A DNA stretch of 64,000 bases from a virus, in IMG/VR virus record IMGVR_UViG_3300025141_008848, positions 62,001 through 126,000 of that record. The stretch is one strand, 5' to 3'. This document shows, piece by piece, positions 2,327-49,075 of the stretch. A program made the translations under genes and the position numbers. The notes below the pieces were generated by a model, which saw nothing but the letters and a program-made list of their open reading frames with translations, was not told where the DNA came from and did not search any database. Numbering within the stretch: the stretch's first letter is position 1; the number at the start of each line of letters is the position of its first letter.

Positions 2327-2328
2327 GG

Positions 2329-2335: not shown

Positions 2336-2352
2336 ATTAAACAAATTTATAT

Positions 2353-3732: not shown

Positions 3733-3745
3733 TAAAGATTAAAAT

Positions 3746-5831: not shown

Positions 5832-6012
5832 CGATTGGATTACAGAATTACATTATAAAGAATTTATAAAACCAAAATTACAACCGAAAGACTTTTATTG
5901 GGAAAATGGAAATATGGTAATGACGAAATACTTTCATGAAAGAAGAGGTAGTTGTTGTGGTAACAACTGCAGACACTGTCCCTATCACCCCCAACATATA
6001 AAAAATAACTAG
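5818..6012 (+). CDS. DUF5522-like small cysteine-cluster protein
   Basis: 64 residues. The centre and end read (FYWENGNMVMTKYFHERRG)-SCCGNNCRHCPYHP. This resembles the DUF5522 family, in which a 'G..VFT..yH..RG.CCG..CRHCPY' signature covers most of the protein; such proteins are common in Bacteroidota. Four closely spaced cysteines suggest a metal site. The function is unknown. It closes the reductase operon and overlaps the zinc-ribbon gene. It was probably acquired from the host. Confidence 0.75.
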   Translation: MRRSDDWITELHYKEFIKPKLQPKDFYWENGNMVMTKYFHERRGSCCGNNCRHCPYHPQHIKNN

Positions 6013-6067
6013 TAATTAATATAATACAATCTTAAAATCAAAACCAACCATAAAGTAATATAGGAAG

Positions 6068-6074
6068 TATTTAT
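6068..6074 (+). promoter_or_regulatory. TATTTAT element upstream of the gp25 gene
   Basis: TATTTATTATAAAA begins 19 nt before the ATG of the first baseplate gene, inside the 74-bp gap that separates the replication and tail blocks. This is the most complete form of the recurring element and would be well placed to start transcription of the tail operon. Confidence 0.5.
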
Positions 6075-6086
6075 TATAAAAAAGAA

Positions 6087-6554: not shown

Positions 6555-6556
6555 TT

Positions 6557-8395
6557 ATGGCAGAAAAAAAAATAGCATACACAGAAAGAGATTTTTTAGG
6601 GGTTAGGAACGAACTTCTAAGGTTAACAAACACATATTATCCAGACCTAATTAAAAATGCTAACGACGCCTCCATATACTCCGTATTTTTAGACCTAAAT
6701 GCTGCAGTCGCAGACAACCTAAATTTTCAAATAGACAGAACCTTCCAAGAAACAGTCTTACAATATGCTCAAGAAAGAAGTTCTTTATATAATATAGCTA
6801 AAACTTACGGTTTAAAAATTCCAGGAAATAGGCCTTCGGTAACGGTTTGTGATTTATCTATCATAGTTCCAGTTTTAGGTGATAAAGAAGATTTTAAATA
6901 TTTGGGAACCATAAGGGCTGGAGGACAGTTTAGAGGTGGGGGACAAGTATTTGAATTAATAGAGGATTGTGATTTTTCATCTCAGTACAGTGCAGAAGGA
7001 ATACCAAATCAAACAAAAATACCAAATTATAATGCTAACGGGATTATACAGAATTATACAATTGTAAAAAAAGAAGTACTAATTAACGGAGTAACTAAAG
7101 TATTCAAAAAAGAAATTAATGACGCTGACAGTAACCCATTTTTTAAACTTTTTTTACCAGAAAAAAATGTTATAGGGGTAACCAGTGTAATACAAAAAGA
7201 CGGGTTAGGGTACCAAACAATACCTAGTACGACAGAATTTCTATCAACTACAGCAAATAAATGGCATGAAGTCGAAGCTTTAGCACAAAATGAAGTTTTT
7301 GTTGTAGACCCTTCTATGCCACCAGATACTCCAGGTATAAAAGTAGGTAAGTATGTTACTGTACCACAAAGATTTATTACTGAGTTTACACCAGAAGGAT
7401 TCTTCCACCTAACTTTTGGTAGTGGAAACCAAACTTCACAAGACTCACTAGATGGTTTTGCGTCAAAAGGTGTTAAATTAGATATGTCACAATTTTTGAA
7501 TAATATATCTTTAGGTAATGCTGTGAAAGGAAATAGCACTTTATTTGTACAATATAGAATTGGTGGTGGGAAATCATCCAATATTGGTGCTGGAGCAATA
7601 AACACAGTAGGTAATGTGGATTTTGTGGTAGCAGGACCTAGTCAACAGATAAACCAAACAGTAAAGAATAGTTTAGCTATAACAAATACTACATCAGCTA
7701 TAGGGGGTGCAAATCAAATGTCCCCAGATGAGATAAGAAATTATATAGCTTTTAATTTTACAGCACAGAATAGAGGTGTTACCATTAATGATTATGTTTC
7801 TAAGTTAAGAACAATGCCGGCTACATTTGGTGCACCTGCTAAAGTAGGGGTTACTGAAATAGAAAATAAAGTTAACCTAAATGTTTTATCTTATACACCC
7901 GACGGTAAATTAACATCATTAGTTAGTGAAACACTTAAGAACAATATAGCTAACTACCTATCTAATTATAGGATGTTAAATGATTATATAGTAGTTGGTC
8001 CAGCAAGAGTTATAGATGTGGCACTAAGTGTAGATTTAATTTTAGAAAAATCCGCTAATGAAGGTAGTATAGTTACTAACGTGATAACAAAAATTAGTGA
8101 GTATTTTGCAATAGATAGGTTAGAGCTAGGAGAAGACCTGACGTTAGGAACACTAAGGAGTTTTATAATGTCACAACCAGGTGTACTTAATATAACAGGG
8201 TTATATGTGTTTAATAAAGTTGGTGGAGAATACTCTCAATCCATCACTACACAACCATATATAAATGCTACCACCAAACAAATCGGGTTAATAGATGACA
8301 CTATTTATGCTCAACCTAATGAGATATTACAAATTCGTTTCCCAGACAAAGATATATCGGTAAGATTTAAAAAACCAAGTAAACCAGTATTTTAA
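6557..8395 (+). CDS. Baseplate wedge protein gp6 / baseplate J-like
   Basis: Forms the ring of the baseplate that dimerises around the hub and triggers sheath contraction. 612 residues (T4 gp6 660). The N-terminus has the typical gp6 pattern: YTERDFLGVRNELLRLTNTYYPDL, then VFLDLNAAVADNLNFQIDRTFQE (helices that embrace gp25). A second conserved part, ITNTTSAIGGANQMSPDEIRNYIAFNFTAQNRGVTINDY (about residues 375-415), matches the baseplate-J core 'a.GG.d.es.eeir...p......raVt..DY'. It starts 3 nt after gp25. Confidence 0.88.
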   Translation: MAEKKIAYTERDFLGVRNELLRLTNTYYPDLIKNANDASIYSVFLDLNAAVADNLNFQIDRTFQETVLQYAQERSSLYNIAKTYGLKIPGNRPSVTVCDLSIIVPVLGDKEDFKYLGTIRAGGQFRGGGQVFELIEDCDFSSQYSAEGIPNQTKIPNYNANGIIQNYTIVKKEVLINGVTKVFKKEINDADSNPFFKLFLPEKNVIGVTSVIQKDGLGYQTIPSTTEFLSTTANKWHEVEALAQNEVFVVDPSMPPDTPGIKVGKYVTVPQRFITEFTPEGFFHLTFGSGNQTSQDSLDGFASKGVKLDMSQFLNNISLGNAVKGNSTLFVQYRIGGGKSSNIGAGAINTVGNVDFVVAGPSQQINQTVKNSLAITNTTSAIGGANQMSPDEIRNYIAFNFTAQNRGVTINDYVSKLRTMPATFGAPAKVGVTEIENKVNLNVLSYTPDGKLTSLVSETLKNNIANYLSNYRMLNDYIVVGPARVIDVALSVDLILEKSANEGSIVTNVITKISEYFAIDRLELGEDLTLGTLRSFIMSQPGVLNITGLYVFNKVGGEYSQSITTQPYINATTKQIGLIDDTIYAQPNEILQIRFPDKDISVRFKKPSKPVF

Positions 8396-14946: not shown

Positions 14947-17900
14947 ATGGAAGTATATAAATACCGAATAAAAAGAACCAACCCAAGTATATATTGGACA
15001 GTGCCCTGTACAGGAGGGACAGATTTTTGGCCTATAAACTTGAGTACTAATTGTTCTGGAATAACCATGTTTAATTCTACCTTTAGTCAAGTTAGGGATG
15101 CATTAGAGGGGGATATGAATAATTTCCCACAAGAACTAACAGGGTGCTCTATAGCTAATCCATGTGTGATTTTAAATGACACAGTAGTGTTACCAATGTT
15201 CCCTTCCCCAGACCCATTTTGTATAGATTCCTCATCTCACCCATATATTTTATTTACGGGGCTAAATCTAATCCAAATGGGGGTCCAAACATTTACGGGT
15301 GAAAGTTATAATGATATGATAAGTGTTTTTGACTTAACCAACTCAACACTATCACAACCACTAAACACTCAAACATCGGCTAATCTAATGCCGAATTCTA
15401 ATTCTTGTTTTTGTCAAAACCCTTTAGGTACAAACTTAAACCAAATACCTATTCTATTAGACCAAGATTTTAATGATATTGGTCACTACGATATTTGGGA
15501 TGGGAATATTGGACAAAAAGATATTTTTTCTAATTTTGTTGTTACAGCGACTACGACTGCGGGAAATAAAATAAAAATATTTAACTCTACAGATTTTGGT
15601 TATTATAAAACATTTCAGGATTCACCATATACTATAAATTGGGGTGATTGTAATTGTAATTGTCCTGTCCCCCCATGTGTTAATTCATTTGGTGACCCTT
15701 GTTGTGAAACTTTACAATTTCCTAATTTGACAAATCCGGTAGACCATACTTATGGTGGGGTTGGTTCTCGAAAAATTACCATAACCCATGAAAGTCCATG
15801 GGGACCTACTTCGGTGTCACAAATGATTACTGTCCCCTTCATGAATTATAACGCATTATTAGCGACAGGAAATATACCTTCTTTTGTGTCCCCAGTTATT
15901 GGACCTAATGGTCCAGTTGGAACTAATTCTTATTTTGGAGCTTACCCATCTACCCCATTAGATTCCGGTACGGATATAATGCAATATAGTGGAATGTCAC
16001 CTATCTTTGCTGGGGGAAATAATAATGACTGTTTTGATGTCACAGGAAATACCGAAAGTTTATTAGGAGCATTCCAAAACTATACAACATCAAGTACTGC
16101 GGGCTTACCACCAGGATACCAACAAGGTATCACAGTACCTCTTATGGGGCAGGTTTTAAATCCAATCACTAATACATTAGTACAAGGAGTTTCTGGTAAA
16201 ATAACACAAGTAAATGCACAATATACGGCATATACAATTAGTATTGGAACCAACACACCAATAACCTTTTATGATTTTAGTAATGGTGTTACTCTCTATG
16301 AAGCTGTAAGTTGCGGGTTAGACGCGTTTGCGTTTGCAGCATTTGATTGTGTTAAATGTGAACTAGGGGATTGTACATATTGTGAAACAAAAGATGAATA
16401 TATTGATAGGATTACATTTTTACCAGAATCCATAACGTTTAATGCCCAACATGGGGAGTGGTTACCTACTACTAATTATGTTGTTGGGGATATTGTTTTT
16501 GATAGTACTTGGGGGGAATGTTGTTGTTATATGGCAGTAAAAGATATAACACAAAGCGCTACTACTCTTTCCCCATGGGCAGGAGTAAAACCAACAGATA
16601 CATTCCAAGGTGTGTGGTGGTATAATGGACAACCAACTGAACATATTTGGGAAGCGTGTACGCCAGAATGTGAAAGTTGTCCTGATTATACCGCAATACC
16701 TTGTTATGACCCAACAAACTGGTTAAACGCATATCCTACATTTGGTCCTCCAGGACCTGCAGGGGTTTATAGTAATGGTAACAATTATACTGCAGGAACA
16801 TTTACGGTTAGTCAATTCGGTAATTGTTATAGAGCATTACAAACAGGAACACTACCACCACCAACAGGACTAACTAATAACGCATATTGGGATTACATAG
16901 GGTGTTCTAGTTGGATATGCCCACCAGTATCCGCTTTGACAGCTGGAACTGTAGCGTGTGAACTGGTTCCTGGAACTGGGTCTACCAGTACTGGACCATG
17001 TACAACTATAGGTTATACCTCATACAATGATTGTTTTGACGATTTTTTAAATGGTGAGTGTTGTGAAGATAGGTATATATGTACTGACCAGTATTCATGT
17101 CAAGGGTGTACAGGGATAACTTCAGCTCATCCATTATATAATGACCCAAGTGGTTTAGACCCCTTACAAGGTCCAGTTTTTGACTCTGAGCTAGATTGTA
17201 ATGCGTGGTGTAACCCACCAGCATTTTCGTGTACTACTCAGATAGCGTCATCTAATAATTGTTGTGTTTCACTTTCATGTGCTGAGGATAACTTAAATGG
17301 AACCCCAGGATATTATAGTAGTGTGGTATTACCCGTTATTGCTGCCGCTGGTACAAACCCAGCACCTTTCTCAAATATGATTGATTACATAGCGTCTAAT
17401 TATGCTTTATGGTTCGTAAGCCCTCTTACAACACCTAACCCATACGACATTAACGATTGTAATTTAGGTGTGGTAGGGATTGCTACTGCATGTTGTGATT
17501 ATACAATATGGGTTTATAATTGTGAAGATGGGTGTATTCCCGCATTTGCTGGTGCAGGGTGGCCAACACCAGGTGATTGTTGGGCTGCTAATCCACAATG
17601 GGCGGGTTATGGGACAACCCCATGTGGTTGGATATGTGACCCTGTTTGTGAACCCTGTGTCGAGGTATACCAACTTGGTGTGGGATACCCCTACACCCCA
17701 CAAGGATTACTTGATTGTGAAATGAATTGTTCTTGTGTTACTGACTGTTACATATGTGACTGTACCGCAACAACAACAGGGGTAAATATAAATTGTGATT
17801 TATACCACGACCCTATTACAGGTCTAGCCGGTTGTCCCCATTGGCCACCAAATGAAGGTATCCCAGTAAACCCAGGAGACCCATTAACCTACTTATACCA

Positions 17901-20900
17901 AACTAATTGTCTATCCGCGTGTACTTGTGAAGGTGGTATTGATTGCTTTATATCCTCTATTGATGGAACACAGATGGGTGGATGTAGTTCATACCCAAGT
18001 TTGTGGCATATGGCACAACAAAATGCAACATGGAGTTTAGGGTCACCAACAGACGCTGCGGGTAACCCTACGGGGTATACCACTGTAGAAGAATGTTGTT
18101 TGGCCACCGAGTGTTGTTGGGCTGTATGTGAAGAAGACCCAGCTGTTTATGACCCTGGTTATTTTGGTATTACCCCTTCAGTTAATCCAGCGTTACAAGG
18201 TGGTGGTGGTGGTACTTACCCATGTTGGTGGTATTCACAGTCAGTACCAGATGTGTATAGTGATTTCGGGGGTGGACAACCTTCTAATTGTTGTAGTCCC
18301 TTATATATTAATAATGCAGGAGCTAATACGGGATTAGCTGGTTGTATTCAAGACCATCCAAATCACCCATATTGTGATATGATAGATTGTATAAATTCAT
18401 TATGTCCACAACCCGCCCCTTCTAATGAAATGATGTGTTGTGTCCCACCAGAAAACTCATGTATATGTGCATGTGATACTTGGATAGCACAAAATGGTAG
18501 TATATTAGTGCCTAGTTGGGAAGGACCTTGGAACGTAGGAATTTATTTAGAAGGAGATACTGTAAGTTACGGTGATGGTAATACACCAGACTGTTGTTGG
18601 ATATGTACATGTCCATATGACCCATTATCACAAGTATTTGGGAGTGGTGTGTTTGATTGTAGTAGTTCACCACCAGATGATGGACCATACAGTAATGGTC
18701 AACCCAACTGTTGGCAAACTTGTGAAAGGTTACCAGCTACGTTCCCTTCTCCACCATCAAATATAGTAGGTGACCCATGTGGACCTTGTAGTGGTCATGT
18801 TCCACCTGTAACGTATTCTTGTAGTACGGCAGGTTGTTTAGCTTCTACTTGTGTTTTTAATCCAGGTGGGATGAACCCGTCTATATGGGCAACACAAATG
18901 AATTGTTATGATAATCCTATGTGTGACACACCAGCATATCCAGGATATGACCAGTGTAGAGCAGATTGTTATTGTGCAGACCCAAATCCACTTGCTGAAG
19001 TTACAAGTTGTACCGTATTACAAGATTATTTAAATGATATATACTCCCCAGGGGCTCTGGGAGGTGTTAATGGCTGGATTGCAGGTACCGGATGGTACTC
19101 AACTTGGCCAATGACTTATCCACCAGTACAACCAGGACTTATATTTAATACTAGTGGTTCATTTTGGTGGCAATATTCATCGTTCGATGATTGTGTGTTG
19201 GGGGTAAATGCTGGTGTAGATTGTTGTGACACCTCAGGATTTACATACGCTTGTGATGATACATGTAATTGCCCAACGGTAAATGGAAATCCATGTGTTG
19301 GTGGTACAGGATGTTACGTAGTAACGAGTGGTCCTCCAGGACCTTTCACATCAATGGGTCAATGTCAAGCCTGGTGCACATGGGAATGTGACCCAACAGG
19401 ACCACAAATATGTATATTTAATGCATTATCGATAGCAGCTACTACATATCCATCGGCATTAGCATGTAGCGTCGCTAATACTAATTGTGAATGTGTTAAT
19501 GGTACTGTAGAGTACTGGTGTGATTGGGCAGGTGCAGACGCAGGATATTATAACACATTGGGAGCAGTCCCTTGTGTAGACAGTGTATATATGTCCAGCC
19601 AAGTTCCAGCATATCAAGCTATGGCGATAGGACAAGGAGCTACAGGACCTGCAGACCCGGCAAATAATTATCATGACGCGGTAGTCTTAGGGAATAATCC
19701 TACGGGACAAGGATTCCCAACAATACAACAATGTCAAGAAAAGTGTAGATTCTGTTGTGATTGTGCACCTCCAGGTTCAGGTATTTGTGATTTATGTGGA
19801 GACCCCGCTGTCACAATATGTAGTTGGGGTGACCAATTCTGTAGTGCAGGTACTGCCTGTCAATATGGAAGTAGTTACCTATCACCTTATGACTGCCAAC
19901 AAAATACAACTCCATATCCTTGTGCAGCACCGATTACTGAATATTGTTGTCATGCAGTAGATGGGTGTCTATCATATATGGGGGCGTATGTAGCGGGGAC
20001 CAACCCAGTTACAAGTGATGGTGTGGGTTGTGTAAGTTTCCATACCATAGCAGGATGTGATGGGGAATGTAATTTTGTATGTGGGGATTGTACACCAACC
20101 GGAGGACAATGTGATTGTACTTTTGTAAATACATTAACACCTAATTGTCTTGCACCTTATCCATTTACTACGATGGCAGACTGTCAATTCTATCTTAGTA
20201 CAGCTGTCAACCTTTTATATGATGCTGGGTCTTGTTGTAGATGTTATGATTGTTTTTTAAATAGTCCTATAACATATTCCGCATATGATGTGGGAAGTAG
20301 TACATGGATAACAATGAGTACCCCTATACCTACGTTTACCACTAGTGCACTAGCATGGGTAGCAGGTACCCAATATAATACGGGAGATGTTGTTAGTGAA
20401 CTTTTTGATGGTGATGACTGTTGTTATGTTTGTGTTTGGGGAGCTAATGAAACAGGAGGTATAACAACTAACTGGACATGGAATCCTTCTTTCTATTATA
20501 CAGCGTATGTTAATGATGTTGGGTTAGGTAACCCAGTTTGGCCAGGTGGTGGTACTGGAAGTTTGGCGTGGATACCTTGTGACGCAGGATGTGTAAATGT
20601 CCAAATAATTACATATAATTGTATTCCAGGAGCAATCTTCGATAGTTGTGAGTATGATACAAATGGTAATCTAATGAATTTAATAGTACCAACCACAGTA
20701 TTTTTATCTCAAAATGATGTAGTAAGGAGATTAGCGGACCCACTGGGGACACCAAATCTTCAATCAACTAATATATTTACAATTAAATTTCCATATGGTG
20801 GATGGCCAGTAGGTTATCCAGCAAACCCTTGTCTATATAATGGATTTCCCCTAGCTATTGCGGGAGGTTTTCTCAGCATAGATAGTGATATGGCAATGCA

Positions 20901-23900
20901 ATACGGCATCCCACAAGATTATGTATCCTGGTCCCAACTTATTGCAGCTCTGGTAAGTGTAGGTGTTGTGGATTACAGTGGTACCCTGGTAAGTCTAACT
21001 AGTACTTTTGACGAAGTATGTGAAGCAATATGGCTAGCAATTGGGTCGATGCCAGGTTCACTACCAAAGTGTATTACCATTACGATAGACCCATGTGAGT
21101 GTACTCAAAGTACATGTGATTGTGTAGCAGTTAATGGACCAGGAGGACAATTCACTAATCTTGGAGATTGTCAATCACTTCTAAATAACGTACCTTGTTG
21201 TGGTACCTGGTATTGTCCAGGACAAACTAACTGTACCTGCGTATTCCAACCTAATATATTAACTGGGTTTGCCACCCAAATAGATTGTTATAACGCTGTT
21301 AATTGTTGTGAAATACAAGAACCAGAATATGCCTGTATAGTAACAGCTCCATCTCCATCATTCGGAATACCTGATGTGTGTGACTGCATACAAACACCAG
21401 GAGGACCTTATACCGGACCAAACGCACTACTTGATTGTCAAACTGACCCAAATACTTGTTGTTCAGGTACTACAATGCCAGACTACTGGAAATGTGAATT
21501 ACAACCTGGGGGTAACTGTCTGTGTGTACTAGACCCCTCACCAACGATTAATTCTTTTACTAGTCTATTTGATTGTCAATCAACACCAGTCTCCAATTGT
21601 TGTTGGACAGGAGTAAGCTACACACATTATTGGGAGTGTATAGATTTCGGAGGTACCATAGGGTGTGAGTGTGTACAAACATCAACAGGTGCATGGCCTA
21701 CATCTGGAGACTGTGAAGCTCAACAAAGTCTATGTTGTTACAGTGGGGTTACAAAATGGGATTGTAAAGACCCGGGGAATGGTAATTGTACGTGCGTACA
21801 ATCAATATTTGGATTCTATACCAGTTTATATAATTGTGAACATAGTATACCTGCAGTAGTCCCACACCCAAACTGTTGTGAAAAAATTTATGGAAATTGT
21901 AAAACATGTGATGGAGCACAGCTAATCCATACAACAGGTAAACATTACGGTCCCCTAGGTGGGCTAGGTATAGCTTCTACAAATGGTGTAACCCTAGCAC
22001 CAATTGTGGATAGGGGTTTATGGGTTACAGGAACGAATAACTACGTATACTTAGATGTGGTAGAAGACCCATTGGATGGTTGTTGTTACGCACTTATTCA
22101 AACGACAAATCATAGTGGGGTTAATATGTTAGGGCCAGGAAGCCCACTTCTAACCTACTCACCAAGTATTGTGTATAATAACCACATTAACGGTTATTTT
22201 GCTGATGGTTCATATAATTCAGCTCCAGGTCCATGTGCAACAATACAACAAGTTTTTTGTCCATGGTGGCCTTGTGACCCTAGTTGTGTAGGAACAGTAA
22301 AAGGGTATGATTGTGATAATTGTCCCGGAACGTGTGTTTGTAACCCTAATAATACCGCAGGTGCTACGTTCCAAGGTCCAGGAGCATTAGCAGCGTGTCA
22401 AGCAGTTTGTATACAAGGGTGTGATGATTGTGCAGTTAGTTTAGCTGGTTATCTCACCGGACCAGTACAGTATGAGGGTGTATGGAGTGCTACTTTTAAT
22501 CCTCCATGGCATGTGTATGATATTAATGATTGTGTGGTAGACCCTGCAGACAACTGTTGTTATTGTTGTGTTGAAGACCCTACCGTTCTCAATCCGTGTA
22601 CACCAAACACACCACCACAACTATGTAAAGTGGCTGGGGAGGTATGGCATCCATTCCCAATATGTAAGTGTATGAAGCCAAATATACAACAATCCAAATC
22701 GAAAGCTAATCCGTGCATACCACAACCTTGTGCTCCTAATGAAACTTGGTTCGGAAACCCAATATGTGATTGTGTCCCGAACGGTCCTGGTGGTTCAGGT
22801 CCTGGTGGTTCAGGAAATATTAACGGATGTGCCGCCAAACATCAACCATCACTCAATCTTGGTGTGAGTGTTGGTGGTGTTGGGTCTATACCAGTAACAT
22901 GGGCAGATTGTAAACAAGATATAAATGGAGACCCATGTGGTCCTGGTGGCTCGAATCCAATTTGCAAGGACTGTGGTCCTGGTGCGATTACCTTCGATTA
23001 CTATGACCACAATACCAGTACCTGGCAGACGGCTAATATCACTGCCACACCCACCCTCCCAATTCCAGTATGGACACCAGGCACTTACACACCTACCGGT
23101 CAACAGGGTAACGTTGTTATGCATAACGGGTGTTGTTTTGTTGTTTGTAACACACACTCAACACCGACAACATATCTCAACCTATCTCCGACAGATGATT
23201 ATATGGAATACTTATGGTGTATGTCACAACACCCTGGAGGAAATCCACTTGATTGGCCAACACTAATGTCTGCCTTTGGTCAAAATCCTATGGCACAAGT
23301 TGTATATTTCCCATGTGATAAAGATTGTGTACCAAGTGTCCCTATAAGAAACAAGAGATATGATTGTAAACGACAAGCAACGTTGGGGAACCCAAATAAT
23401 ATGGGATGCGTACCAAACCCAAATGGAGTTTATGTAGATTTACCAACATGTCAAATTAACTGTAACCAACAGGAAGAATGTAAACAATGTTGTCAAAATA
23501 CTAATTGGGAACCAGGATTATCTGATGCAATGTCAATGACGAGCTCGTATACACTCCTACAATCAAACGCAAATCCGTGTGATTGTGAATTTTGGTTAGG
23601 TGTTGGTTGGGTTCCAGTACCACTTTCAAAATGTAAGGTACGAGATGGTTGTGTACAAGTTAAGGTATGTGACTCACCTTATGTGTGGGCAGGACAACCG
23701 ATATGTGATTGTGTTCTCCCAAACGATATCCCACACGAGGACTGGGCCCATGATGATGGTTGTGTACAAGATAAGGAATGTGAGAATGGTTGGACCTGGT
23801 CATGGAAATTATGTGACTGTGTTATTGAAACCAGAGAAAGATGTATGGAAAGAGAATGTGCAGCAGGAAAATTTTGGGATAAGGAAGTATGTAATTGTGT

Positions 23901-23922
23901 ACCACATAAAAAAATACCCTAA
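14947..23922 (+). CDS. Giant modular cysteine-rich tail/adhesin protein (2991 residues)
   Basis: I know no named family for the whole protein. Well over 200 cysteines (about 100 in the last 960 residues) are arranged in repeated modules. Residues about 233-300 look PKD-like (NWGDC ... HTYGGVGSRKITITHESPWG). Residues 2050-2312 hold six tandem copies of a 38-50-residue unit, (Y/W)xC...CxCV...(Y/F)xSxxxC...CC; divergent copies occur throughout. Seven segments read 'Y..GD.V......CCY..' (near residues 503, 609, 1192, 1801, 2359, 2511, 2708), recalling CBM5/12 chitin-binding folds. The end has C-x4-C..W....C-D-C-V units (near 2590, 2902, 2939, 2966). A GPGGS linker repeats at about residue 2613. 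There is no signal peptide, so it is made in the cytoplasm, as virion proteins are. Likely a disulfide-hardened receptor-binding appendage. Confidence 0.7.
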   Translation: MEVYKYRIKRTNPSIYWTVPCTGGTDFWPINLSTNCSGITMFNSTFSQVRDALEGDMNNFPQELTGCSIANPCVILNDTVVLPMFPSPDPFCIDSSSHPYILFTGLNLIQMGVQTFTGESYNDMISVFDLTNSTLSQPLNTQTSANLMPNSNSCFCQNPLGTNLNQIPILLDQDFNDIGHYDIWDGNIGQKDIFSNFVVTATTTAGNKIKIFNSTDFGYYKTFQDSPYTINWGDCNCNCPVPPCVNSFGDPCCETLQFPNLTNPVDHTYGGVGSRKITITHESPWGPTSVSQMITVPFMNYNALLATGNIPSFVSPVIGPNGPVGTNSYFGAYPSTPLDSGTDIMQYSGMSPIFAGGNNNDCFDVTGNTESLLGAFQNYTTSSTAGLPPGYQQGITVPLMGQVLNPITNTLVQGVSGKITQVNAQYTAYTISIGTNTPITFYDFSNGVTLYEAVSCGLDAFAFAAFDCVKCELGDCTYCETKDEYIDRITFLPESITFNAQHGEWLPTTNYVVGDIVFDSTWGECCCYMAVKDITQSATTLSPWAGVKPTDTFQGVWWYNGQPTEHIWEACTPECESCPDYTAIPCYDPTNWLNAYPTFGPPGPAGVYSNGNNYTAGTFTVSQFGNCYRALQTGTLPPPTGLTNNAYWDYIGCSSWICPPVSALTAGTVACELVPGTGSTSTGPCTTIGYTSYNDCFDDFLNGECCEDRYICTDQYSCQGCTGITSAHPLYNDPSGLDPLQGPVFDSELDCNAWCNPPAFSCTTQIASSNNCCVSLSCAEDNLNGTPGYYSSVVLPVIAAAGTNPAPFSNMIDYIASNYALWFVSPLTTPNPYDINDCNLGVVGIATACCDYTIWVYNCEDGCIPAFAGAGWPTPGDCWAANPQWAGYGTTPCGWICDPVCEPCVEVYQLGVGYPYTPQGLLDCEMNCSCVTDCYICDCTATTTGVNINCDLYHDPITGLAGCPHWPPNEGIPVNPGDPLTYLYQTNCLSACTCEGGIDCFISSIDGTQMGGCSSYPSLWHMAQQNATWSLGSPTDAAGNPTGYTTVEECCLATECCWAVCEEDPAVYDPGYFGITPSVNPALQGGGGGTYPCWWYSQSVPDVYSDFGGGQPSNCCSPLYINNAGANTGLAGCIQDHPNHPYCDMIDCINSLCPQPAPSNEMMCCVPPENSCICACDTWIAQNGSILVPSWEGPWNVGIYLEGDTVSYGDGNTPDCCWICTCPYDPLSQVFGSGVFDCSSSPPDDGPYSNGQPNCWQTCERLPATFPSPPSNIVGDPCGPCSGHVPPVTYSCSTAGCLASTCVFNPGGMNPSIWATQMNCYDNPMCDTPAYPGYDQCRADCYCADPNPLAEVTSCTVLQDYLNDIYSPGALGGVNGWIAGTGWYSTWPMTYPPVQPGLIFNTSGSFWWQYSSFDDCVLGVNAGVDCCDTSGFTYACDDTCNCPTVNGNPCVGGTGCYVVTSGPPGPFTSMGQCQAWCTWECDPTGPQICIFNALSIAATTYPSALACSVANTNCECVNGTVEYWCDWAGADAGYYNTLGAVPCVDSVYMSSQVPAYQAMAIGQGATGPADPANNYHDAVVLGNNPTGQGFPTIQQCQEKCRFCCDCAPPGSGICDLCGDPAVTICSWGDQFCSAGTACQYGSSYLSPYDCQQNTTPYPCAAPITEYCCHAVDGCLSYMGAYVAGTNPVTSDGVGCVSFHTIAGCDGECNFVCGDCTPTGGQCDCTFVNTLTPNCLAPYPFTTMADCQFYLSTAVNLLYDAGSCCRCYDCFLNSPITYSAYDVGSSTWITMSTPIPTFTTSALAWVAGTQYNTGDVVSELFDGDDCCYVCVWGANETGGITTNWTWNPSFYYTAYVNDVGLGNPVWPGGGTGSLAWIPCDAGCVNVQIITYNCIPGAIFDSCEYDTNGNLMNLIVPTTVFLSQNDVVRRLADPLGTPNLQSTNIFTIKFPYGGWPVGYPANPCLYNGFPLAIAGGFLSIDSDMAMQYGIPQDYVSWSQLIAALVSVGVVDYSGTLVSLTSTFDEVCEAIWLAIGSMPGSLPKCITITIDPCECTQSTCDCVAVNGPGGQFTNLGDCQSLLNNVPCCGTWYCPGQTNCTCVFQPNILTGFATQIDCYNAVNCCEIQEPEYACIVTAPSPSFGIPDVCDCIQTPGGPYTGPNALLDCQTDPNTCCSGTTMPDYWKCELQPGGNCLCVLDPSPTINSFTSLFDCQSTPVSNCCWTGVSYTHYWECIDFGGTIGCECVQTSTGAWPTSGDCEAQQSLCCYSGVTKWDCKDPGNGNCTCVQSIFGFYTSLYNCEHSIPAVVPHPNCCEKIYGNCKTCDGAQLIHTTGKHYGPLGGLGIASTNGVTLAPIVDRGLWVTGTNNYVYLDVVEDPLDGCCYALIQTTNHSGVNMLGPGSPLLTYSPSIVYNNHINGYFADGSYNSAPGPCATIQQVFCPWWPCDPSCVGTVKGYDCDNCPGTCVCNPNNTAGATFQGPGALAACQAVCIQGCDDCAVSLAGYLTGPVQYEGVWSATFNPPWHVYDINDCVVDPADNCCYCCVEDPTVLNPCTPNTPPQLCKVAGEVWHPFPICKCMKPNIQQSKSKANPCIPQPCAPNETWFGNPICDCVPNGPGGSGPGGSGNINGCAAKHQPSLNLGVSVGGVGSIPVTWADCKQDINGDPCGPGGSNPICKDCGPGAITFDYYDHNTSTWQTANITATPTLPIPVWTPGTYTPTGQQGNVVMHNGCCFVVCNTHSTPTTYLNLSPTDDYMEYLWCMSQHPGGNPLDWPTLMSAFGQNPMAQVVYFPCDKDCVPSVPIRNKRYDCKRQATLGNPNNMGCVPNPNGVYVDLPTCQINCNQQEECKQCCQNTNWEPGLSDAMSMTSSYTLLQSNANPCDCEFWLGVGWVPVPLSKCKVRDGCVQVKVCDSPYVWAGQPICDCVLPNDIPHEDWAHDDGCVQDKECENGWTWSWKLCDCVIETRERCMERECAAGKFWDKEVCNCVPHKKIP
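22783..22812 (+). repeat. 15-bp tandem duplication encoding a Gly-Pro-Gly-Gly-Ser linker
   Basis: GGTCCTGGTGGTTCA occurs twice in a row (22783-22797, 22798-22812), and a near copy (GGTCCTGGTGGCTCG) appears at about 22939. It encodes a flexible linker between the Cys modules of the giant tail protein. Confidence 0.85.
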
Positions 23923-36349: not shown

Positions 36350-38764
36350 ATGAGTTATATAATTAAAAACAGTACACAAGGAGCTATCGCAGCTAGATTA
36401 ACTGACGCTGGGAGAAGAAAACTATCAGAAGGTAAATTAAATATCGGGCTTTTCCAAATAGGTGATAGTGAAGTCAACTATGATTGTTATACCCAACAAC
36501 CAGGAGCAAGTGATGGGTTATTTATTTTACAAGCAGAACATAACGCACAAAATCTTAACCCTTTACCAGAAAAAAATAAAGGACATATAAAATATCCCTT
36601 AGTTGGTGGGATGAGTAGCGGGGATACATTTGGCCCTACAATCCCACAACATCAACAGAATGATGTTTACAATACAGCCGCATCAAGAGGGTTTTTTACT
36701 GGTACTACAGACAATTCAACGGGGGGTAACGGTTCTTATAGTTACTTTTATGCAAATATCGATAGTTCTTATACGCTATCTTCGAATTGGTTATTCTGTG
36801 CATCCGCGATGACAGGAAGTAGTCAAATGGTATTACTTACAGCTAGTACTATGTGTTCATCACAACTTTACTCCCCAGTTGTTGGAGACTTATTATCAGT
36901 CACATATGAATTTTCTGGAGCAAATTGTTCACAATTAAATTATAGTGCTGCATCTACCACTTTATTTTATCAAGTAGAAAGTGGTAATAATGATTCAGCT
37001 CAGACAAACTCGTGGTTATCCCTAACAGTAGACAGAGCTTTACCTAATTTTAGTGGGGTGACAACAGATATGAAAAATATTTGTATGAGAGTCAGGGTCT
37101 ATCCTGCAAGTTCAGCGACCCCAATGACCACATCCAGTATATATAATACTGCAAATACTGTAACTTGTTGGTGTGACGAAACACTATCATTCAATAATTG
37201 TTGTGACGTATCCAATTCTGACGTTAAAATATGGAATATGAATATAAACTGGACCCACCAAGTAGCAGGAGTATGGTCACCAGCAGCAGGTGTTGACGAA
37301 AGCTTCAATAGCTATGGGTCAAGTGGATATTGTGGCTCCAAAGAATATTTTGGGCTAGAAAGTAATAATGGACAATCTTTTACAAATCAAGTTAATGATA
37401 CTTACCACCCTTCGGTTATAGGTGGGACCTTTTACTTTGATTCTTTTTATAATACTAGGGTAGTTTTACCAGAAGAACAAAAAATGGCAGGATTTATCCA
37501 TTATACCAACAATTCAACAACAGATTTTTATGGTGAAAAGTTTGCTCTTAAAGATTCTACCTTTACTGGTATTGGTGAAGCCAAAAACCTAAAATTACAT
37601 TTACCTTGGTTAATGTGGCATAAGAAATCAGTCCAAGGAAGTGGAACTGGGACCGGAGCTGGTAATGAAACTCTTCTAGGACAAACATTTTACGTTGACC
37701 CACAATCATATCCACTAGTATTCCCAATTAATCCACATCTTATGTTATCTAGTATGAATACTAATATGAATGATGATGGATTAAGGTATTATCATTTATG
37801 GGATGACAATATTGGAAGTGGGGCAACACCTAATAGAGTTGGAAAAGTATTTCCAGATTATAAAATGATTGTTATTGATGATGAAGAATTATTGACAGCT
37901 ATGTCTTATAAATCTAATAGAAGTTGGACTTTGCCAGCCCCTAAAACACAAAAATTTCCATCCGGTACGGGATGTCCTACGGGTTGTACTACGGGGGTAA
38001 TACAAACACCAGGAACCACACTTTGGATGACTTACATGTTCGAGAATAAAGTACTTGGAGGTGCGGGTGTAACAACAGGAGTTCATTGTAACTATTTTGT
38101 GTCCGAAAATCTACAACCAGGAGAAGGATTTTTTGATATAGGATTTACTTTAGGTCCGGAGTTCCCTTATTTGAGAAGTGACTTTGCATTAGTGGGTACA
38201 GGTTGGGAAGCAGATACCTTATATATATTAACACAAAAAGTCCCTAACGGTCAAAAACCAGCACCACAAGGATGGAATCTAAAAGACGTAACTTCTGAAA
38301 TTCCAAACCATACTGTAGGAACTAAAATATCCGCAACAAATATAATAAACCATACATTCTATCTTACAGCAAATGACCTAGACCCAGGATGTACATACTA
38401 TACAACACCAACTCCGTACTACTTAAATAATTTTATAGACATACCAACCGCGGCATCACCAGGACCAACACAACTACAATTTGGGGACGAATACTTTTTT
38501 TATGGTAGTCTAGAGACAGATATAATGGCAACGATTTATGAGATGAAACATGTGGTACAGTTAGGAGCACAACAATATATAACTTCTACGAACCCAACAT
38601 GGGTAGATTATACTACTAATGCTGGTTATACTAACCCTAGAATAACTGAAATTGGTTTATATGATAATGAGAATGGGTTCCCAGACTTGATGGCTATCGC
38701 AAAATTACAGTCACCAGTTCAAAGACAAAGTACTCAGCAATTTACAATATCTATTGATTTTTAA
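36350..38764 (+). CDS. Tail-fibre protein with shared N-terminal anchor domain and 'ITEIGLYD' C-terminus
   Basis: 804 residues. The N-terminus AIAARLTDAGRRKLSEGKLN...GDSEVNYDC matches the starts of the proteins at 38764 and 39599 (consensus L(S/T)(D/E)xGRx(R/K)...F.(I/L).D..(I/V)(D/N)Y). It is probably the anchor to the tail. The C-terminus RITEIGLYDNENGFPDLMAIAK is a common phage-fibre ending and is also found at the end of the 41909 protein. The middle is beta-rich, with a Cys-rich patch (CWCDE, NNCCDV) near residue 265. It overlaps the next gene by 1 nt. Confidence 0.6.
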   Translation: MSYIIKNSTQGAIAARLTDAGRRKLSEGKLNIGLFQIGDSEVNYDCYTQQPGASDGLFILQAEHNAQNLNPLPEKNKGHIKYPLVGGMSSGDTFGPTIPQHQQNDVYNTAASRGFFTGTTDNSTGGNGSYSYFYANIDSSYTLSSNWLFCASAMTGSSQMVLLTASTMCSSQLYSPVVGDLLSVTYEFSGANCSQLNYSAASTTLFYQVESGNNDSAQTNSWLSLTVDRALPNFSGVTTDMKNICMRVRVYPASSATPMTTSSIYNTANTVTCWCDETLSFNNCCDVSNSDVKIWNMNINWTHQVAGVWSPAAGVDESFNSYGSSGYCGSKEYFGLESNNGQSFTNQVNDTYHPSVIGGTFYFDSFYNTRVVLPEEQKMAGFIHYTNNSTTDFYGEKFALKDSTFTGIGEAKNLKLHLPWLMWHKKSVQGSGTGTGAGNETLLGQTFYVDPQSYPLVFPINPHLMLSSMNTNMNDDGLRYYHLWDDNIGSGATPNRVGKVFPDYKMIVIDDEELLTAMSYKSNRSWTLPAPKTQKFPSGTGCPTGCTTGVIQTPGTTLWMTYMFENKVLGGAGVTTGVHCNYFVSENLQPGEGFFDIGFTLGPEFPYLRSDFALVGTGWEADTLYILTQKVPNGQKPAPQGWNLKDVTSEIPNHTVGTKISATNIINHTFYLTANDLDPGCTYYTTPTPYYLNNFIDIPTAASPGPTQLQFGDEYFFYGSLETDIMATIYEMKHVVQLGAQQYITSTNPTWVDYTTNAGYTNPRITEIGLYDNENGFPDLMAIAKLQSPVQRQSTQQFTISIDF

Positions 38765-39546
38765 TGGGATATTTAGGCATTCATAATGATACTATATCGG
38801 GTAACACTTTTAGAATGTATTTATCGGATTATGGTAGAAGTAGACTAGGGTCTGGAAGTGGGATATTAGAATCTCTTGAACAATTTGGACTTGGGGATTC
38901 TGATATTGATTATCGTAGATTTGTGGGAAGTGGGAGTTGTAGTGGACAAACTAGTTTAAGTGCCTTAACCGAAGATTGTTTTTATGACCTAACAGACGCA
39001 AGAGGAGGGGAACCAAATTCCGTCAAAAGAATATTTGGTATAACTCCGTCGATATTTAGAGGACCGAGAGTTCAACTTAATAATGGAGTTATTTCTTTAA
39101 GTAATACATCATTAGGTGTAAATCCAACCAACACAACAACTTTATGGGCAAAACATAGAGAATCTGAAGCAGACACTAATATAGAAGAACCTAATAGTGG
39201 AAATTATACAACCTGTTGGGAAGTAGGGGCGGCGGTAAACGTATTTTATCCATCCTTTTGTATAACATGTGCAGATTTTAATGGTGACGGGGTTGTAGAC
39301 TTTAAAGATTTAATAACATTTTTAAATCTTATGGGTACTGAAGGTAAAGTAGGTAATGAACTTGTTGGGGATTTTAATGGTGATGGTAAGGTAGATAAAA
39401 AAGATTTAATGATTTTTATAGATTGTCTAAAGTATAACAATAAAAATATATTAAAATATTGTACTAATAAAGAAATCTATTGTTTACTATGTAAACATTT
39501 AGGTTCAGCTTCACTATGTAATGGTGACTGTTTAAAATGTATATAA
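38764..39546 (+). CDS. Tail protein with anchor domain and C-terminal dockerin-like module
   Basis: 260 residues. The N-terminal ~55 residues carry the shared anchor (MYLSDYGRSRLGSG ... FGLGDSDIDYR). Residues about 168-222 form a type I dockerin-like pair of calcium loops: DFNGDGVVDFKDLITFLNLMG and, after ~10 residues, DFNGDGKVDKKDLMIFIDCLK. Both have the D-x-N-x-D-G-x-V-D-x-x-D pattern. A short Cys-rich end follows (CLLCKHLG, CNGDCLKC). Dockerins bind cohesins in cellulosomes and in bacterial surface complexes. On a phage protein this could dock another virion part or a host surface protein (inference). Confidence 0.7.
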   Translation: MGYLGIHNDTISGNTFRMYLSDYGRSRLGSGSGILESLEQFGLGDSDIDYRRFVGSGSCSGQTSLSALTEDCFYDLTDARGGEPNSVKRIFGITPSIFRGPRVQLNNGVISLSNTSLGVNPTNTTTLWAKHRESEADTNIEEPNSGNYTTCWEVGAAVNVFYPSFCITCADFNGDGVVDFKDLITFLNLMGTEGKVGNELVGDFNGDGKVDKKDLMIFIDCLKYNNKNILKYCTNKEIYCLLCKHLGSASLCNGDCLKCI

Positions 39547-39598: not shown

Positions 39599-41470
39599 AT
39601 GGGCTATATAAGTGCACAAACCGCAACAACACTAACTATTCAGTTAACTGAAGAAGGGCGTCAGAGAATGCTAACATCAGGTAACTTTATAGATATGTTT
39701 AATAAATTTGGTATTTCTGATGGTGATATAGATTATAGAAATACACAGCAACATGCAGACACTACAAGTACTTCTAATGACTCTGCACAATTAGGTTATT
39801 TACCCGATGCTACTGGCCAAGACAGCAATTACAAAAACTCTATAAGTAACGGGTTTACACAGAATAATATAGTGTGGCAAACACCCGAAGCAAATAAAGT
39901 TTTTAACTCAGTTAAGGAGTACGTATCAATTGGTGTTAGAGGAAGTGATAATTTAGTAAAATACTATAGAAATGAAGTAGAGATAGATGTTTATTTATCC
40001 GACTACTATGTTTTATGTAAATTATTCGCTGCAAAGTATGTGAATGACCACAAAGACATCCTATCTTCCGCAGCTACTACAATTGCTAGTGCAACTACAA
40101 GCTACTTTGAAAATACTTTAAATATCTATAAGGATAGTGATTACTTAAATTTTTTAAATTCATTATCAGAACATGGAATTGGACAATATATTGATTATGT
40201 TGATTCAGTTAAGGTTTATGATGGAAGTAACTTCAGAACACAGAATATAAAATTAGTCCCAACAACAGACAGTAGTTATTATAATGCTCTAGCTTTAGCA
40301 GGGGGTGCATTTATGAATAGAGGTCAACATACAGGAATTGATTTCTTGGGTACAAATTTAAAAGGTATGCAACTACCATCACCCTTTTCTTTGGTGTTTT
40401 CACCGGGATTAAATAATGGTGCCACCAAATACTTAAGAGGAGCGGGTAAATATGGTATAGGTTTCGCAGCTTTTGATGTGGGTTACTTAAATTGTGGGGG
40501 TATAAACGCGTGGAACCAAACTGGTGAGTCGTACCCAACATTTGTAATGAACTCAATCACTAACGGGTGGGTAAGTGAGTTAGCGGGTGACGCACAGCCC
40601 CTAATAGGGTTTGTGAGTAGTATTGATATGGAAAGAGAAATTAATCTAACCCAAAGTGGGTTCGGTAGTGAAGCGTATAAAAATATTAACACGACAATTC
40701 CAACAACTAGATTAGTTACTAATGTTACAAATACTAATTTTTCACCAGTATACTACCCTATTAAACTTAAACGATTAACAGAAAATCAAGGAGCATATAT
40801 AAATATTAATAACACCCAAAACAAAGGAATTAGAATAACATATACAACTCATCCTTCTGATACATTTGGTTTGTTGATGGGTAGTATGGAGTATACCGCT
40901 AATTGGAATAATAATGAACAGGGGTTAAAAACAGGAGGTGCTTCTTTTTCACTATACCCATCTAAGGATAATGGGTTAGGTACGGTAGCAAGTAGAGTAT
41001 CAGATAAAACTGAACCATATTATACTCTTTATACTAGACAAGCAAAAATGGCAGATGATATATTTTTAACTATAGCTTCACAAAATAATAATTTTTGGAA
41101 AACAGATACATATTCCGGAGGGTATATTGCTGGTCTGAGTGGAAGTGGACAAACTTCATACAATGTATCCATTCCTATTACGTGGGATGTATATAGTTCG
41201 GATAATGCAGGGGCAACCCCGTGTAAACTAACAGTCAGATTTAAATTTAATAAACCTGCAATCACACCATCAATCGCTTACGAAACGACGGACTCTCAAA
41301 GCTATTATAGAATATATGATAATGCAACATTCCGTTTTTATGGGGAAGCGGGTGTGGATAAGAGTTCCTATTCTGAAGACCCTCGAGGACACAACAGTTC
41401 AAATCAATGGCAAACTAGTGCTGGAAAGGCATTATTTTATAAAGTAACATACGGACAAGTAATAAATTAA
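39599..41470 (+). CDS. Tail-fibre protein with shared N-terminal anchor domain
   Basis: 623 residues. The N-terminus TIQLTEEGRQRMLTSG...FNKFGISDGDIDYR is the third copy of the anchor seen at 36350 and 38764. The remainder is a beta-rich fibre-like sequence with a glycine-rich central part (about residues 225-300). It lacks the 'ITEIGLYD' ending; that ending appears instead on the protein two genes downstream. It is preceded by a 52-bp gap (39547-39598) in which I see only A/T-rich sequence and no clear promoter. Confidence 0.6.
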   Translation: MGYISAQTATTLTIQLTEEGRQRMLTSGNFIDMFNKFGISDGDIDYRNTQQHADTTSTSNDSAQLGYLPDATGQDSNYKNSISNGFTQNNIVWQTPEANKVFNSVKEYVSIGVRGSDNLVKYYRNEVEIDVYLSDYYVLCKLFAAKYVNDHKDILSSAATTIASATTSYFENTLNIYKDSDYLNFLNSLSEHGIGQYIDYVDSVKVYDGSNFRTQNIKLVPTTDSSYYNALALAGGAFMNRGQHTGIDFLGTNLKGMQLPSPFSLVFSPGLNNGATKYLRGAGKYGIGFAAFDVGYLNCGGINAWNQTGESYPTFVMNSITNGWVSELAGDAQPLIGFVSSIDMEREINLTQSGFGSEAYKNINTTIPTTRLVTNVTNTNFSPVYYPIKLKRLTENQGAYININNTQNKGIRITYTTHPSDTFGLLMGSMEYTANWNNNEQGLKTGGASFSLYPSKDNGLGTVASRVSDKTEPYYTLYTRQAKMADDIFLTIASQNNNFWKTDTYSGGYIAGLSGSGQTSYNVSIPITWDVYSSDNAGATPCKLTVRFKFNKPAITPSIAYETTDSQSYYRIYDNATFRFYGEAGVDKSSYSEDPRGHNSSNQWQTSAGKALFYKVTYGQVIN

Positions 41471-41908: not shown

Positions 41909-43105
41909 ATGGGAAAATTTAAAACAATACAAACAAACGAAAAAAGGTTAGAAAGTGTTCTAGTACCTTATAATAGTACATCTGGTGGTACCGGGTGGAA
42001 TTCAATAAGTGGAGCAACATTACCATTTACAGTGATACAACGTAACCCATCTAACGGAAGAGCGTTTTCTAATTTATATTCTTCTTTTAATATGCCCACC
42101 ATATCTGGGGACGTTACTAGTTTTTTATCTACTTGGTCAAACACTAACTTCAGTGGGCTATCACAAGCACAAGCAATTGTTGCCGATATACCTAAAAGTG
42201 AATATGGAATACTCATAGACGGACGAACATTAAAACTAACAGTTCCAAAACACAATGGTGGGGTATACACTATCTATAGTTCTTACTACAACCCAATCCC
42301 AACATCCTCTGACAATTCTGATGAAGCAGAATATTTTGGTAACCCTAAAATAGGGGGTCAAATAGCAGGTGCACCTGGATTACCCTCTACTAATGTAGCT
42401 TTTTTATTTTGTGATGCAATCGCGGGACCATCATTATCAGCATCTAATACTAGTATTACTAGTTGGTCCAATGGGTGGATAACCGACACCACACCAACAG
42501 GATATCCTGGTGGGGGAGTAGACAACTTTAAATTTACACAGACCGTTTCTTCTTCTAATACACCTAAAGCTTATGCACAAGTACAGGATAAACCAGTAGG
42601 GATTGCATATTTAGATAAAGGATTTGCAGTTATAACTGACCCTATTATTATTAGTAATTTTAATTATAGTGGTGCTTCTACAGGTGGTACTTATACATAT
42701 GAACAAGGGGATTATATTTCCGCTGACAGTTCTGGGATAACACAAGTTTATTTTACTGCGAGTACCTCAGCAGCTTGTAGTTATTATTCATTTGAAAAAG
42801 AATGGAGTGTAGTAGTTGATATTGTTGCTGGGGCTGGGGAATTTTATATTACTGAAAATCAAACCGCTGCGGAAGCTCAGACACCCTACTATGGTGCTGG
42901 AGGGAGTGACACAGGAATACAATTTCAAACACCATTTGGGGACGTACACAATATCTGGGATTTATCTAATGTAACCTCAGCTTTTATAACAGAAATAGGT
43001 TTATACGACTCATCAAATCGACTAATTGCTGTCGCTATACCAGATAGACCAATAGCTAAATCAAAAAACACTCCACTCACTTTACAATTGGTACTTACTT
43101 TCTAA
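41909..43105 (+). CDS. Tail-fibre protein, distal type
   Basis: 398 residues. The C-terminus AFITEIGLYDSSNRLIAVAI ... LTLQLVLTF closely parallels the end of the 36350 protein and is a common end of phage fibre proteins. The N-terminus (MGKFKTIQTNEKRLESVLV) is not the anchor domain. The middle is rich in Ser, Thr, Gly and Pro. Together with 39599 and 41476 it may be a split version of the single-gene fibre at 36350. It is the last gene of the tail block; the resolvase gene starts 9 nt downstream. Confidence 0.6.
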   Translation: MGKFKTIQTNEKRLESVLVPYNSTSGGTGWNSISGATLPFTVIQRNPSNGRAFSNLYSSFNMPTISGDVTSFLSTWSNTNFSGLSQAQAIVADIPKSEYGILIDGRTLKLTVPKHNGGVYTIYSSYYNPIPTSSDNSDEAEYFGNPKIGGQIAGAPGLPSTNVAFLFCDAIAGPSLSASNTSITSWSNGWITDTTPTGYPGGGVDNFKFTQTVSSSNTPKAYAQVQDKPVGIAYLDKGFAVITDPIIISNFNYSGASTGGTYTYEQGDYISADSSGITQVYFTASTSAACSYYSFEKEWSVVVDIVAGAGEFYITENQTAAEAQTPYYGAGGSDTGIQFQTPFGDVHNIWDLSNVTSAFITEIGLYDSSNRLIAVAIPDRPIAKSKNTPLTLQLVLTF

Positions 43106-47887: not shown

Positions 47888-49075
47888 ATGGATAATCCAA
47901 AAATACCTCTATTTAAAGTTTTTATGTCAGACGATGCACCTACGGAAGTGGGTAAAGTTTTGATGTCCGGATTTGTCGGGGAAGGGCCTAAAGTCAAAAA
48001 ATTTGAGAAAAAATTAAAAGAATATTTTGATAACCCTAATTTAGTTTCTTTAAATTCTGCTACCTCCGCTTTACACCTCACTCTACATTTATTAAAAAAA
48101 CCCACAAATAGTATTGAAACTTCCTATAGTTATGCACCACAATTAAGTGAATGGCCTGGACTAAAAGATGGTGATGAAGTTTTAACTTGTCCATTGACAT
48201 GCACTGCGACTAATTGGCCAATATTGGCTAATAATTTAAATATAAAATGGGTAGACGTAGACCCGACCACCTGTAACATGTGTCTAGAAGATTTAGAAAA
48301 GCAGATATCAGAAAAAACCAAAGTAATAATGTTGGTACATTGGGGTGGTAACTCTATAGATTTGGATAGGGTGGAAAAAATACAAGAAAAATGCAAAGAT
48401 AAATACGGATTCCGCCCAGCAGTAATCCAAGACGGGGCTCATGGATTCGGGTCCGAATATAAAGGCAAAAAACTAGGAAATACCAAACACGATATTTTTA
48501 CTATATACAGTTTTCAAGCTATAAAACACCTAACCACAGTAGATGGGGGTTGTCTCATTTTACCAGATAACAGATTTTATAAAAGAGCAAAACTATTAAG
48601 GTGGTACGGTATTGATAGAGATGATAATAGGAAAGATTTTAGGTGTGAAAATGATATATCAGAATGGGGGTTTAAATTTCATATGAATGATATTGCAGCA
48701 ACTATAGGGTTATGTAACCTTAAACATATAGAAAATATATTAGAAAAACACAAACAAAATGCTTTATATTATAATAAAGAATTAAAAGGTGTAAAAGGAA
48801 TTGACCTAATAAAGAGTAAAGATGAATGTTCTTATTGGATTTACACCATTAAAGTTAAGAACCAAAGAAGATTTATGGATGTAATGGAGTCAAAAGGTAT
48901 TATGGTAAGTAGAATACATGAACGTAATGATAAACATTCATGTGTGAAAAAATATAAAAGAGACTTACCTAATTTAGATAAATTAGTTAAGGAAATGATT
49001 TGTATCCCAGTGGGTTGGTGGTTAAGTAAAGAAGATAGGGAATATATTGTTAACACCATAAAAGAAATATGTTAA
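47888..49075 (+). CDS. DegT/DnrJ/EryC1-family sugar aminotransferase
   Basis: PLP-dependent enzyme that aminates keto-sugar nucleotides for glycan synthesis. 395 residues, usual for the family. The N-terminus has GEGPKVKKFEKKLKEYF and the substrate loop VSLNSATSALHLTLHLL. AVIQDGAHGFGSEYKGKKLG contains the Asp that holds PLP, and YSFQAIKHLTTVDGG contains the Schiff-base Lys (about residue 213). The product sugar cannot be told from sequence. It overlaps the following glycosyltransferase gene by 7 nt, so the pair may make and attach an amino sugar, to a host surface glycan, phage protein or phage DNA (inference). Confidence 0.9.
   Translation: MDNPKIPLFKVFMSDDAPTEVGKVLMSGFVGEGPKVKKFEKKLKEYFDNPNLVSLNSATSALHLTLHLLKKPTNSIETSYSYAPQLSEWPGLKDGDEVLTCPLTCTATNWPILANNLNIKWVDVDPTTCNMCLEDLEKQISEKTKVIMLVHWGGNSIDLDRVEKIQEKCKDKYGFRPAVIQDGAHGFGSEYKGKKLGNTKHDIFTIYSFQAIKHLTTVDGGCLILPDNRFYKRAKLLRWYGIDRDDNRKDFRCENDISEWGFKFHMNDIAATIGLCNLKHIENILEKHKQNALYYNKELKGVKGIDLIKSKDECSYWIYTIKVKNQRRFMDVMESKGIMVSRIHERNDKHSCVKKYKRDLPNLDKLVKEMICIPVGWWLSKEDREYIVNTIKEIC

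Follow-up and report, generated by a model that had tools for sequence, protein, structure and literature searches.

A dockerin-like F-hand pair in a small protein of a phage tail gene cluster

The locus analyzed here raises the question of whether a phage tail protein carries a dockerin and, if so, what the module would dock. Dockerins are known for building cellulosomes. The initial annotation had placed a type I dockerin-like calcium module at the end of a phage tail protein encoded in the 64-kb stretch of viral DNA that we analyzed as a whole (the window). This protein is 260 amino acids long, contains 12 cysteines, and is encoded, with all of its parts, on the plus strand at 38764..39546 (stop included); full-length homologues are present in 18 other viral records. 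No hydrophobic signal-like N-terminus was seen in the 260-aa sequence, which begins with an anchor-like segment (residues 1-53, 38764..38922) common to its 804-aa and 623-aa neighbors and to a core phage family of 217-222-aa proteins. The dockerin-like F-hand pair, together with two invariant cysteines before it, spans residues 166-224 (39259..39435), as delimited by Pfam, the predicted model, structure comparison, and conservation. As had been proposed, it contains two putative 12-residue calcium loops, DFNGDGVVDFKD (loop 1, residues 171-182, 39274..39309) and DFNGDGKVDKKD (loop 2, residues 203-214, 39370..39405), each followed in the AlphaFold model by an F-helix (residues 180-189 and 212-224, respectively). 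However, the pair is not the C-terminal end of the protein, because about 40 residues come after it in a cysteine-rich helical tail (residues 221-260, 39424..39543) with seven invariant cysteines at positions 221, 233, 240, 243, 252, 256, and 259. A loose regular expression for the loop pattern gave four matches in the six frames of the window, two of which are the loops of this one gene.

The anticipated match to the Pfam Dockerin_1 model (PF00404) was found at residues 171-219 with a score of 32.2 bits (E 1.3e-7; curated cut-off 22.9), and it was the sole PF00404 match at E<=0.001 in the 128,462-base record. By contrast, the EF-hand_1, EF-hand_5, EF-hand_6, EF-hand_7, and EF-hand_8 models all scored below their own cut-offs on the window protein. 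PF00404 matched the homologues in all 18 two-loop records at E<=1, with 14 above the cut-off and 4 below it. Comparisons across the family leaned toward EF-hands: EF-hand_6 matched 13 of 13 members at E<=0.01, compared to 11 of 13 for Dockerin_1, and the family profile searched against PDB sequences scored troponin C (E 3.3e-6) ahead of the best dockerin (E 8.3e-5), with calmodulin also above the dockerins. The lengths of the alignments pointed the other way. PDB dockerins differed from the family by 0-1 residue, whereas calmodulin/troponin-type chains mostly needed about four more, although a few EF-hand-type chains (e.g., 2jnx) needed no extra residues. Glutamate is usual at loop position 12 in EF-hands, and calmodulin/troponin-type EF-hand pairs have E-helices. 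In both loops here, position 12 is D in 15/15 sequences, as are D at position 1, N, T, or D at position 3, and D or N at position 5; moreover, the model has a 5-residue helix at 164-168 and no helix at 190-211, the stretch that leads into loop 2. Across the 15 aligned sequences, the two loops lie 31-33 residues apart (D to D). For dockerin 2y3n, the residue numbers in PMC8063739 correspond to a spacing of 33, and the ligand set of that dockerin (positions 1, 3, 5, and 12) is the same as that of both loops here.

The AlphaFold model is confident in the C-terminal half of the protein, with block means of pLDDT of 85-92 over residues 181-220, and has pLDDT <50 in the N-terminal half. A predicted fold unlike that of dockerins had been named as grounds for giving up the proposal. 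In a second look at the Foldseek matches of the model, nine of the ten solved chains with Z>=2 were dockerins, which occupied ranks 1-9, but the scores were low: the best dockerin chain aligned over 56 residues at rmsd 1.9 with a modest Z of 5.9, in the range (Z <8) that, according to the tool's own caution, may reflect merely a common arrangement, and Foldseek's own values were weak (E 2.4, prob 0.35). A search of BFVD structures with the 260-aa protein gave no meaningful match. The Pfam score, the spacing and topology of the loops, and this ranking together support the proposed type I dockerin-like pair, and a dockerin-like F-hand pair is the best reading of the predicted fold.

IMG/VR scans provided the 18 other records with full-length two-loop homologues (L004-L018, L049, L050, and L054), at 45-71% identity, and a sister group of six records (L019-L022, L060, and L061), at ≈26-31% identity; the related phages are marine or oceanic. 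Retention of the F-hand pair in 18 related viral records implies that it is not a chance resemblance. For the conservation table, the window sequence was aligned with those of 14 of the 18 two-loop records; L007, L011, L015, and L050 were left out because their proteins are identical or almost identical to those of L008, L012, L014, and L049, respectively. In an alignment of 13 two-loop members, none of the 12 cysteines of the window protein varies. In the 15 sequences of the table, loop position 9 is D or N, except for G in loop 2 of two sequences, and six non-ligand residues (A170, F172, L200, G202, F204, and C221) are strongly conserved. Few positions of the module vary as much as 10 and 11 of the loops (entropies 2.84/2.33 and 2.87/2.28). 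dN was lower than dS in all four regions of the protein in eight of the nine pairs compared; in the ninth pair (L010/L018), the tail had no synonymous change, and hence no ratio could be given there. A tblastn search of 50,697 phage records with the whole 260-aa protein found no relative. Two unannotated fecal records that appeared in a search with the module by itself (E 0.3 and 0.6) were taken as chance or unresolved matches.

The sister group bears on the history of the module. In a tree of the 804-aa neighbor, the four sister rows formed one clade (100/100), apart from the nine two-loop rows. In sister proteins, loop 2 is recognizable (DFTGEGDINCDD and similar), and loop 1 is degenerate and not an intact calcium loop. 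The model of one sister protein (L060) has a helix at 177-188, in the place of the first hand, and a second helix at 211-227. In a second look at its PDB matches, two dockerins had Z of 2.1-2.2, tied with unrelated folds, and are not separable from chance. We set aside a simple gain of the pair from a single-loop form, since the L060 protein keeps the first-hand helix beside a degenerate loop 1; with both helices kept, loop 1 is equally likely to have been lost or gained. Moreover, the lack of an intact loop 1 and of a separable structural match in the sister group implies that the family can do without a complete pair loaded with calcium. Comparison of the two-loop and one-loop clades could show what calcium adds.

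That the module belongs to a phage tail protein, as initially proposed, is supported by the gene neighborhood and a shared N-terminus; a location in the virion is suggested by this context. A baseplate wedge subunit gene (6557..8395, plus strand; PHROG match) puts the stretch in a tail/baseplate cluster. The closest named relatives of the wedge protein, at merely 25-27% identity, are those of the isolates Flavobacterium phage immuto, where it is annotated as baseplate wedge, and Microcystis phage Mel-JY01, which infect Flavobacterium and Microcystis, respectively. A further relative occurs in an unannotated 484-kb phage record (overall identities 25-29%), and a T4-like gp20 is also annotated in the immuto record. 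Immediately upstream of the 260-aa gene is that of the 804-aa protein (36350..38764, plus strand), which has a similar N-terminus and whose stop codon overlaps the 260-aa start (TAATG). The 623-aa gene follows downstream (39599..41470, plus strand), and the N-terminus of its product matches the 260-aa family profile at E 1.6e-11. Thereafter comes a 398-aa gene (41909..43105, plus strand), whose product carries, in its C-terminal part, a TEIGLYD-type segment that recurs in tail-cluster proteins of both immuto and Mel-JY01. The gene order 1192-804-260-623-398-RuvC was present in 16/16 loci examined, comprising 12 of the 18 two-loop loci and 4 of the 6 sister loci, and the one-base overlap of the 804-aa stop and 260-aa start in 11 of the 12 two-loop loci. 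A 143-aa gene was detected in 12/12 two-loop and 0/4 sister loci at E 1e-4, with a gap of similar size in the latter.

Judged from their sequences, the three consecutive 804-aa, 260-aa, and 623-aa genes appear to share an anchor-like N-terminus. In a search of 123 proteins, the 260-aa family profile gave short, weak matches to small tail-cluster proteins of immuto (E 9e-5) and Mel-JY01 (E 4e-5). A profile of 80 immuto-type proteins, a common family with at least 493 candidate stretches, matched the N-termini of the 804-aa, 623-aa, and 260-aa proteins in descending order of strength. Thus, the 260-aa protein has both the N-terminal ≈50 residues and the tail-cluster position of an anchor-type tail family. 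Profiles of the 804-, 623-, 398-, 143-, and 1192-aa families gave no match better than E 0.13 among PDB sequences, and hence no partner candidate emerged from sequence.

Other features of the window were noted in passing. In the middle of the 1221-aa tail-cluster protein (8512-12177), a long hydrophobic stretch looks by eye as if it could span a membrane. A DegT/DnrJ/EryC1 aminotransferase (239 bits) adjoins a family 2 glycosyltransferase at 47888-50100, possibly as a sugar-modification pair. A phage-encoded sigma factor of the sigma-70 family, matched in regions 2 and 4, is located at 54254-55051; at 59208-60551 is a 447-aa protein whose MORN repeats score 37.7 bits (cut-off 22.5). No tRNA genes were found in the window.

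Dockerin-like hands also occur in other viral genes. In a sister record (G021), a dockerin-like pair is present in a different gene, which encodes a 986-aa cysteine-rich protein. This protein matches residues 156-528 of a 2991-aa protein of the window (14947..23922, plus strand) at 31% identity, and its dockerin part is 40% identical to the window 260-aa protein over 55 residues. Three genes upstream of the 986-aa gene match window proteins of 1221, 603, and 322 aa. When the genome was searched, with neighboring sequence included in the frame, the G021 pair scored 27.3 bits; in the protein scan it reached only 17.0 bits, below the cut-off. That a second tail-cluster gene also has a dockerin-like pair speaks for portability of the module. 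Of the residues of the 2991-aa protein itself, 255 (8.5%) are cysteines, and no Pfam model matched it at E<=0.01; should this reading frame encode a virion fibre, one so large and rich in cysteine would in itself be unusual. One stretch of the 2991-aa protein looks PKD-like by eye, and PKD models matched its G021 homologue weakly, below the cut-off.

On the reverse strand of the G021 segment 22000-29500 (L096), GCTDPNASNYNPN-type repeats lie at 150-3784 beside and within the dockerin-bearing 986-aa protein; such repeats are known from surface proteins of marine Bacteroidota and are a possible hint at the host. In another viral contig (L065), neighboring proteins of 349 aa (5215-6264) and 690 aa (6261-8333) both have dockerin-like calcium hands, detected by Dockerin_1 in the first (29.4 bits) and by eye as one C-terminal hand in the second. 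An unrelated 517-518-aa family, found in five records (L198-L202, reading frame near 3240-4795), has by eye a GDFNGDG-type hand in mid-protein, and its genes adjoin those of tail-like repeat proteins. A dockerin-like hand was also seen by eye, with no Pfam match, in an unrelated viral-contig protein (L067). Near the immuto terminase gene, the 841-aa protein immuto26A_192 (L097, 4007-6532) has a single dockerin-like hand, INNDGKVDKTDKYLKNRR, at 16.6 bits, below the cut-off.

The proposal that the module docks a cohesin-bearing partner in the phage found no support. Cohesin (PF00963) gave no match at E<=10 in the phage's own record and none in 24 related records, which are mostly partial contigs, with an HMM that can miss divergent cohesins. 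Cohesin-recognition positions in the window protein are FK and KK, which is not a duplicated pair, and across the family they are neither conserved nor symmetric. PMC8063739 identifies loop positions 10 and 11 as the determinants of specificity in dockerins. According to PMC4728124, canonical type I dockerins have a duplicated symmetric recognition pair and a dual-binding mode, and non-canonical single-mode dockerins also exist. Since single-mode dockerins exist, the recognition residues bear on the canonical binding mode and not on the fold. Both the scattered recognition positions and the failure to match Cohesin in any of 25 records speak against classical docking to a cohesin in cis. A dockerin without a recognized cohesin is not unusual: among 79 genomes from the phylum of a Kuenenia MAG, Dockerin_1 matched 30 (E<=0.001), of which 18 gave no Cohesin match.

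Our best reading, which we hold with a probability of roughly 0.5, is that the module is a calcium-folded and probably disulfide-locked cap, docking or structural, of a small tail adaptor, which acts in a dockerin-like manner within the virion. The 260-aa protein would be a small adaptor of the tail or baseplate, in which the first ≈53 residues may serve as the anchor-like segment used by the three genes in the row (804, 260, and 623 aa) and the last ≈95 residues would form a two-calcium F-hand pair of type I dockerin build. The invariant cysteines before, within, and after the pair would clamp the module, probably by forming disulfides after the virion has left the cell. Calcium would fold the module into a compact, rigid docking plug for a neighboring protein of the virion; the likeliest partner would be a fibre or the 804-aa protein, whose gene is translationally coupled to that of the adaptor. 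Such a plug would work as dockerins do (calcium-dependent, portable, and protein-to-protein), probably by a surface other than the one that binds cohesin. Residues 150-260 constitute a small, well-bounded domain for direct tests of calcium binding and partners.

A less probable reading, although one to be taken seriously, is that the module is purely structural, a calcium- and cysteine-stabilized terminal cap or receptor-binding tip that resembles dockerins in fold only and docks nothing specifically. This possibility is consistent with the absence of cohesin from the 25 records, the variability of loop positions 10 and 11, the dockerin-like hands in unrelated viral-contig proteins (L065, L067, and L198-L202), and the 18 of 30 dockerin-positive control genomes that lack a recognized cohesin. 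By contrast, conservation of the six non-ligand residues would also fit a functional interface, as would the pair in a second tail-cluster gene, where a sister phage seems to have put a functional module to use again. An extension of the docking reading, which we regard as doubtful, is that dockerin-like modules serve marine T4-like phages as couplers within the virion that are exchangeable and switched by calcium, on a small adaptor here and on a giant cysteine-rich fibre in the sister, with a receptor domain that cohesin models miss, as a viral counterpart of the cohesin-dockerin system. If so, viruses would use the calcium plug of dockerins, possibly to assemble or swap tail parts.

Attachment through a host-surface cohesin, bound by the virion dockerin so that adsorption would depend on calcium, is unlikely. 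The dockerin-like fold is consistent with it, variable recognition positions could follow variable host partners, and cohesins in 14 of the 79 control-phylum genomes imply that they exist outside of cellulosome makers, but FK and KK are not the canonical duplicated symmetric pair described in PMC4728124. Host-cohesin binding by the module is unsupported, and dependence of attachment on calcium can fairly be supposed as far as it concerns stability of the fold. A scan of genome contigs for the DegT aminotransferase, which was closest to that of a Lokiarchaeota MAG (61%), followed by a Gammaproteobacteria MAG (60%), actinobacteria, and others, names no host. Least probable of all is an ordinary calmodulin-type EF-hand pair with an incidental Dockerin_1 match, which the troponin C and EF-hand_6 scores of the family favor, but which the D at loop position 12, the missing E-helix before loop 2, the spacing about four residues shorter than in most EF-hand chains, and the EF-hand model scores of the window protein all speak against.

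In a search that covered mainly the open literature, we found no phage virion protein described with a dockerin domain like this one, which is weak evidence of novelty. PMC5967307 likens a portion of a phage protein to PDB 2wz8, which it calls a dockerin carbohydrate-binding module; we rejected it as a precedent, because the 2wz8-like part is not the dockerin-like module of the 260-aa protein. The phage lysin LysGH15 (PMC4022735) is similar in its reported EF-hand-like calcium site in a phage protein, and differs in being a lysin and not a tail-cluster protein with a dockerin-like pair. Closer in context are gp164 of Flavobacterium phage vB_FspM_immuto (219 aa) and a 211-aa protein of Mel-JY01, which match the N-terminal ≈50 residues and are likewise encoded in the tail cluster downstream of the homologous wedge gene, but whose remainder lacks the dockerin-like module. 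These two proteins are only tentative orthologues of the 260-aa protein, since the immuto-type profile also matches the 804-aa and 623-aa neighbors, and better. Calmodulin/troponin-type EF-hand pairs share the chemistry of the calcium loops and a general sequence similarity with the module and differ in their longer spacing. Compared to type I dockerins, the module is set in a phage tail-cluster protein that has no signal-like N-terminus and an extra cysteine-rich clamp, and it departs from canonical members in that no cohesin was found and the recognition positions of the family are variable and asymmetric. In other respects, the module resembles type I dockerins (PF00404), such as those of Clostridium perfringens NagH (2ozn) and C. 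cellulolyticum (2vn5), in its two D-x-N/D-x-D/N loops with D12 and a helix after each, its repeat spacing of 31-33 residues, its Pfam score above the cut-off, and, at a modest Z, its best matches in the second look at structures.
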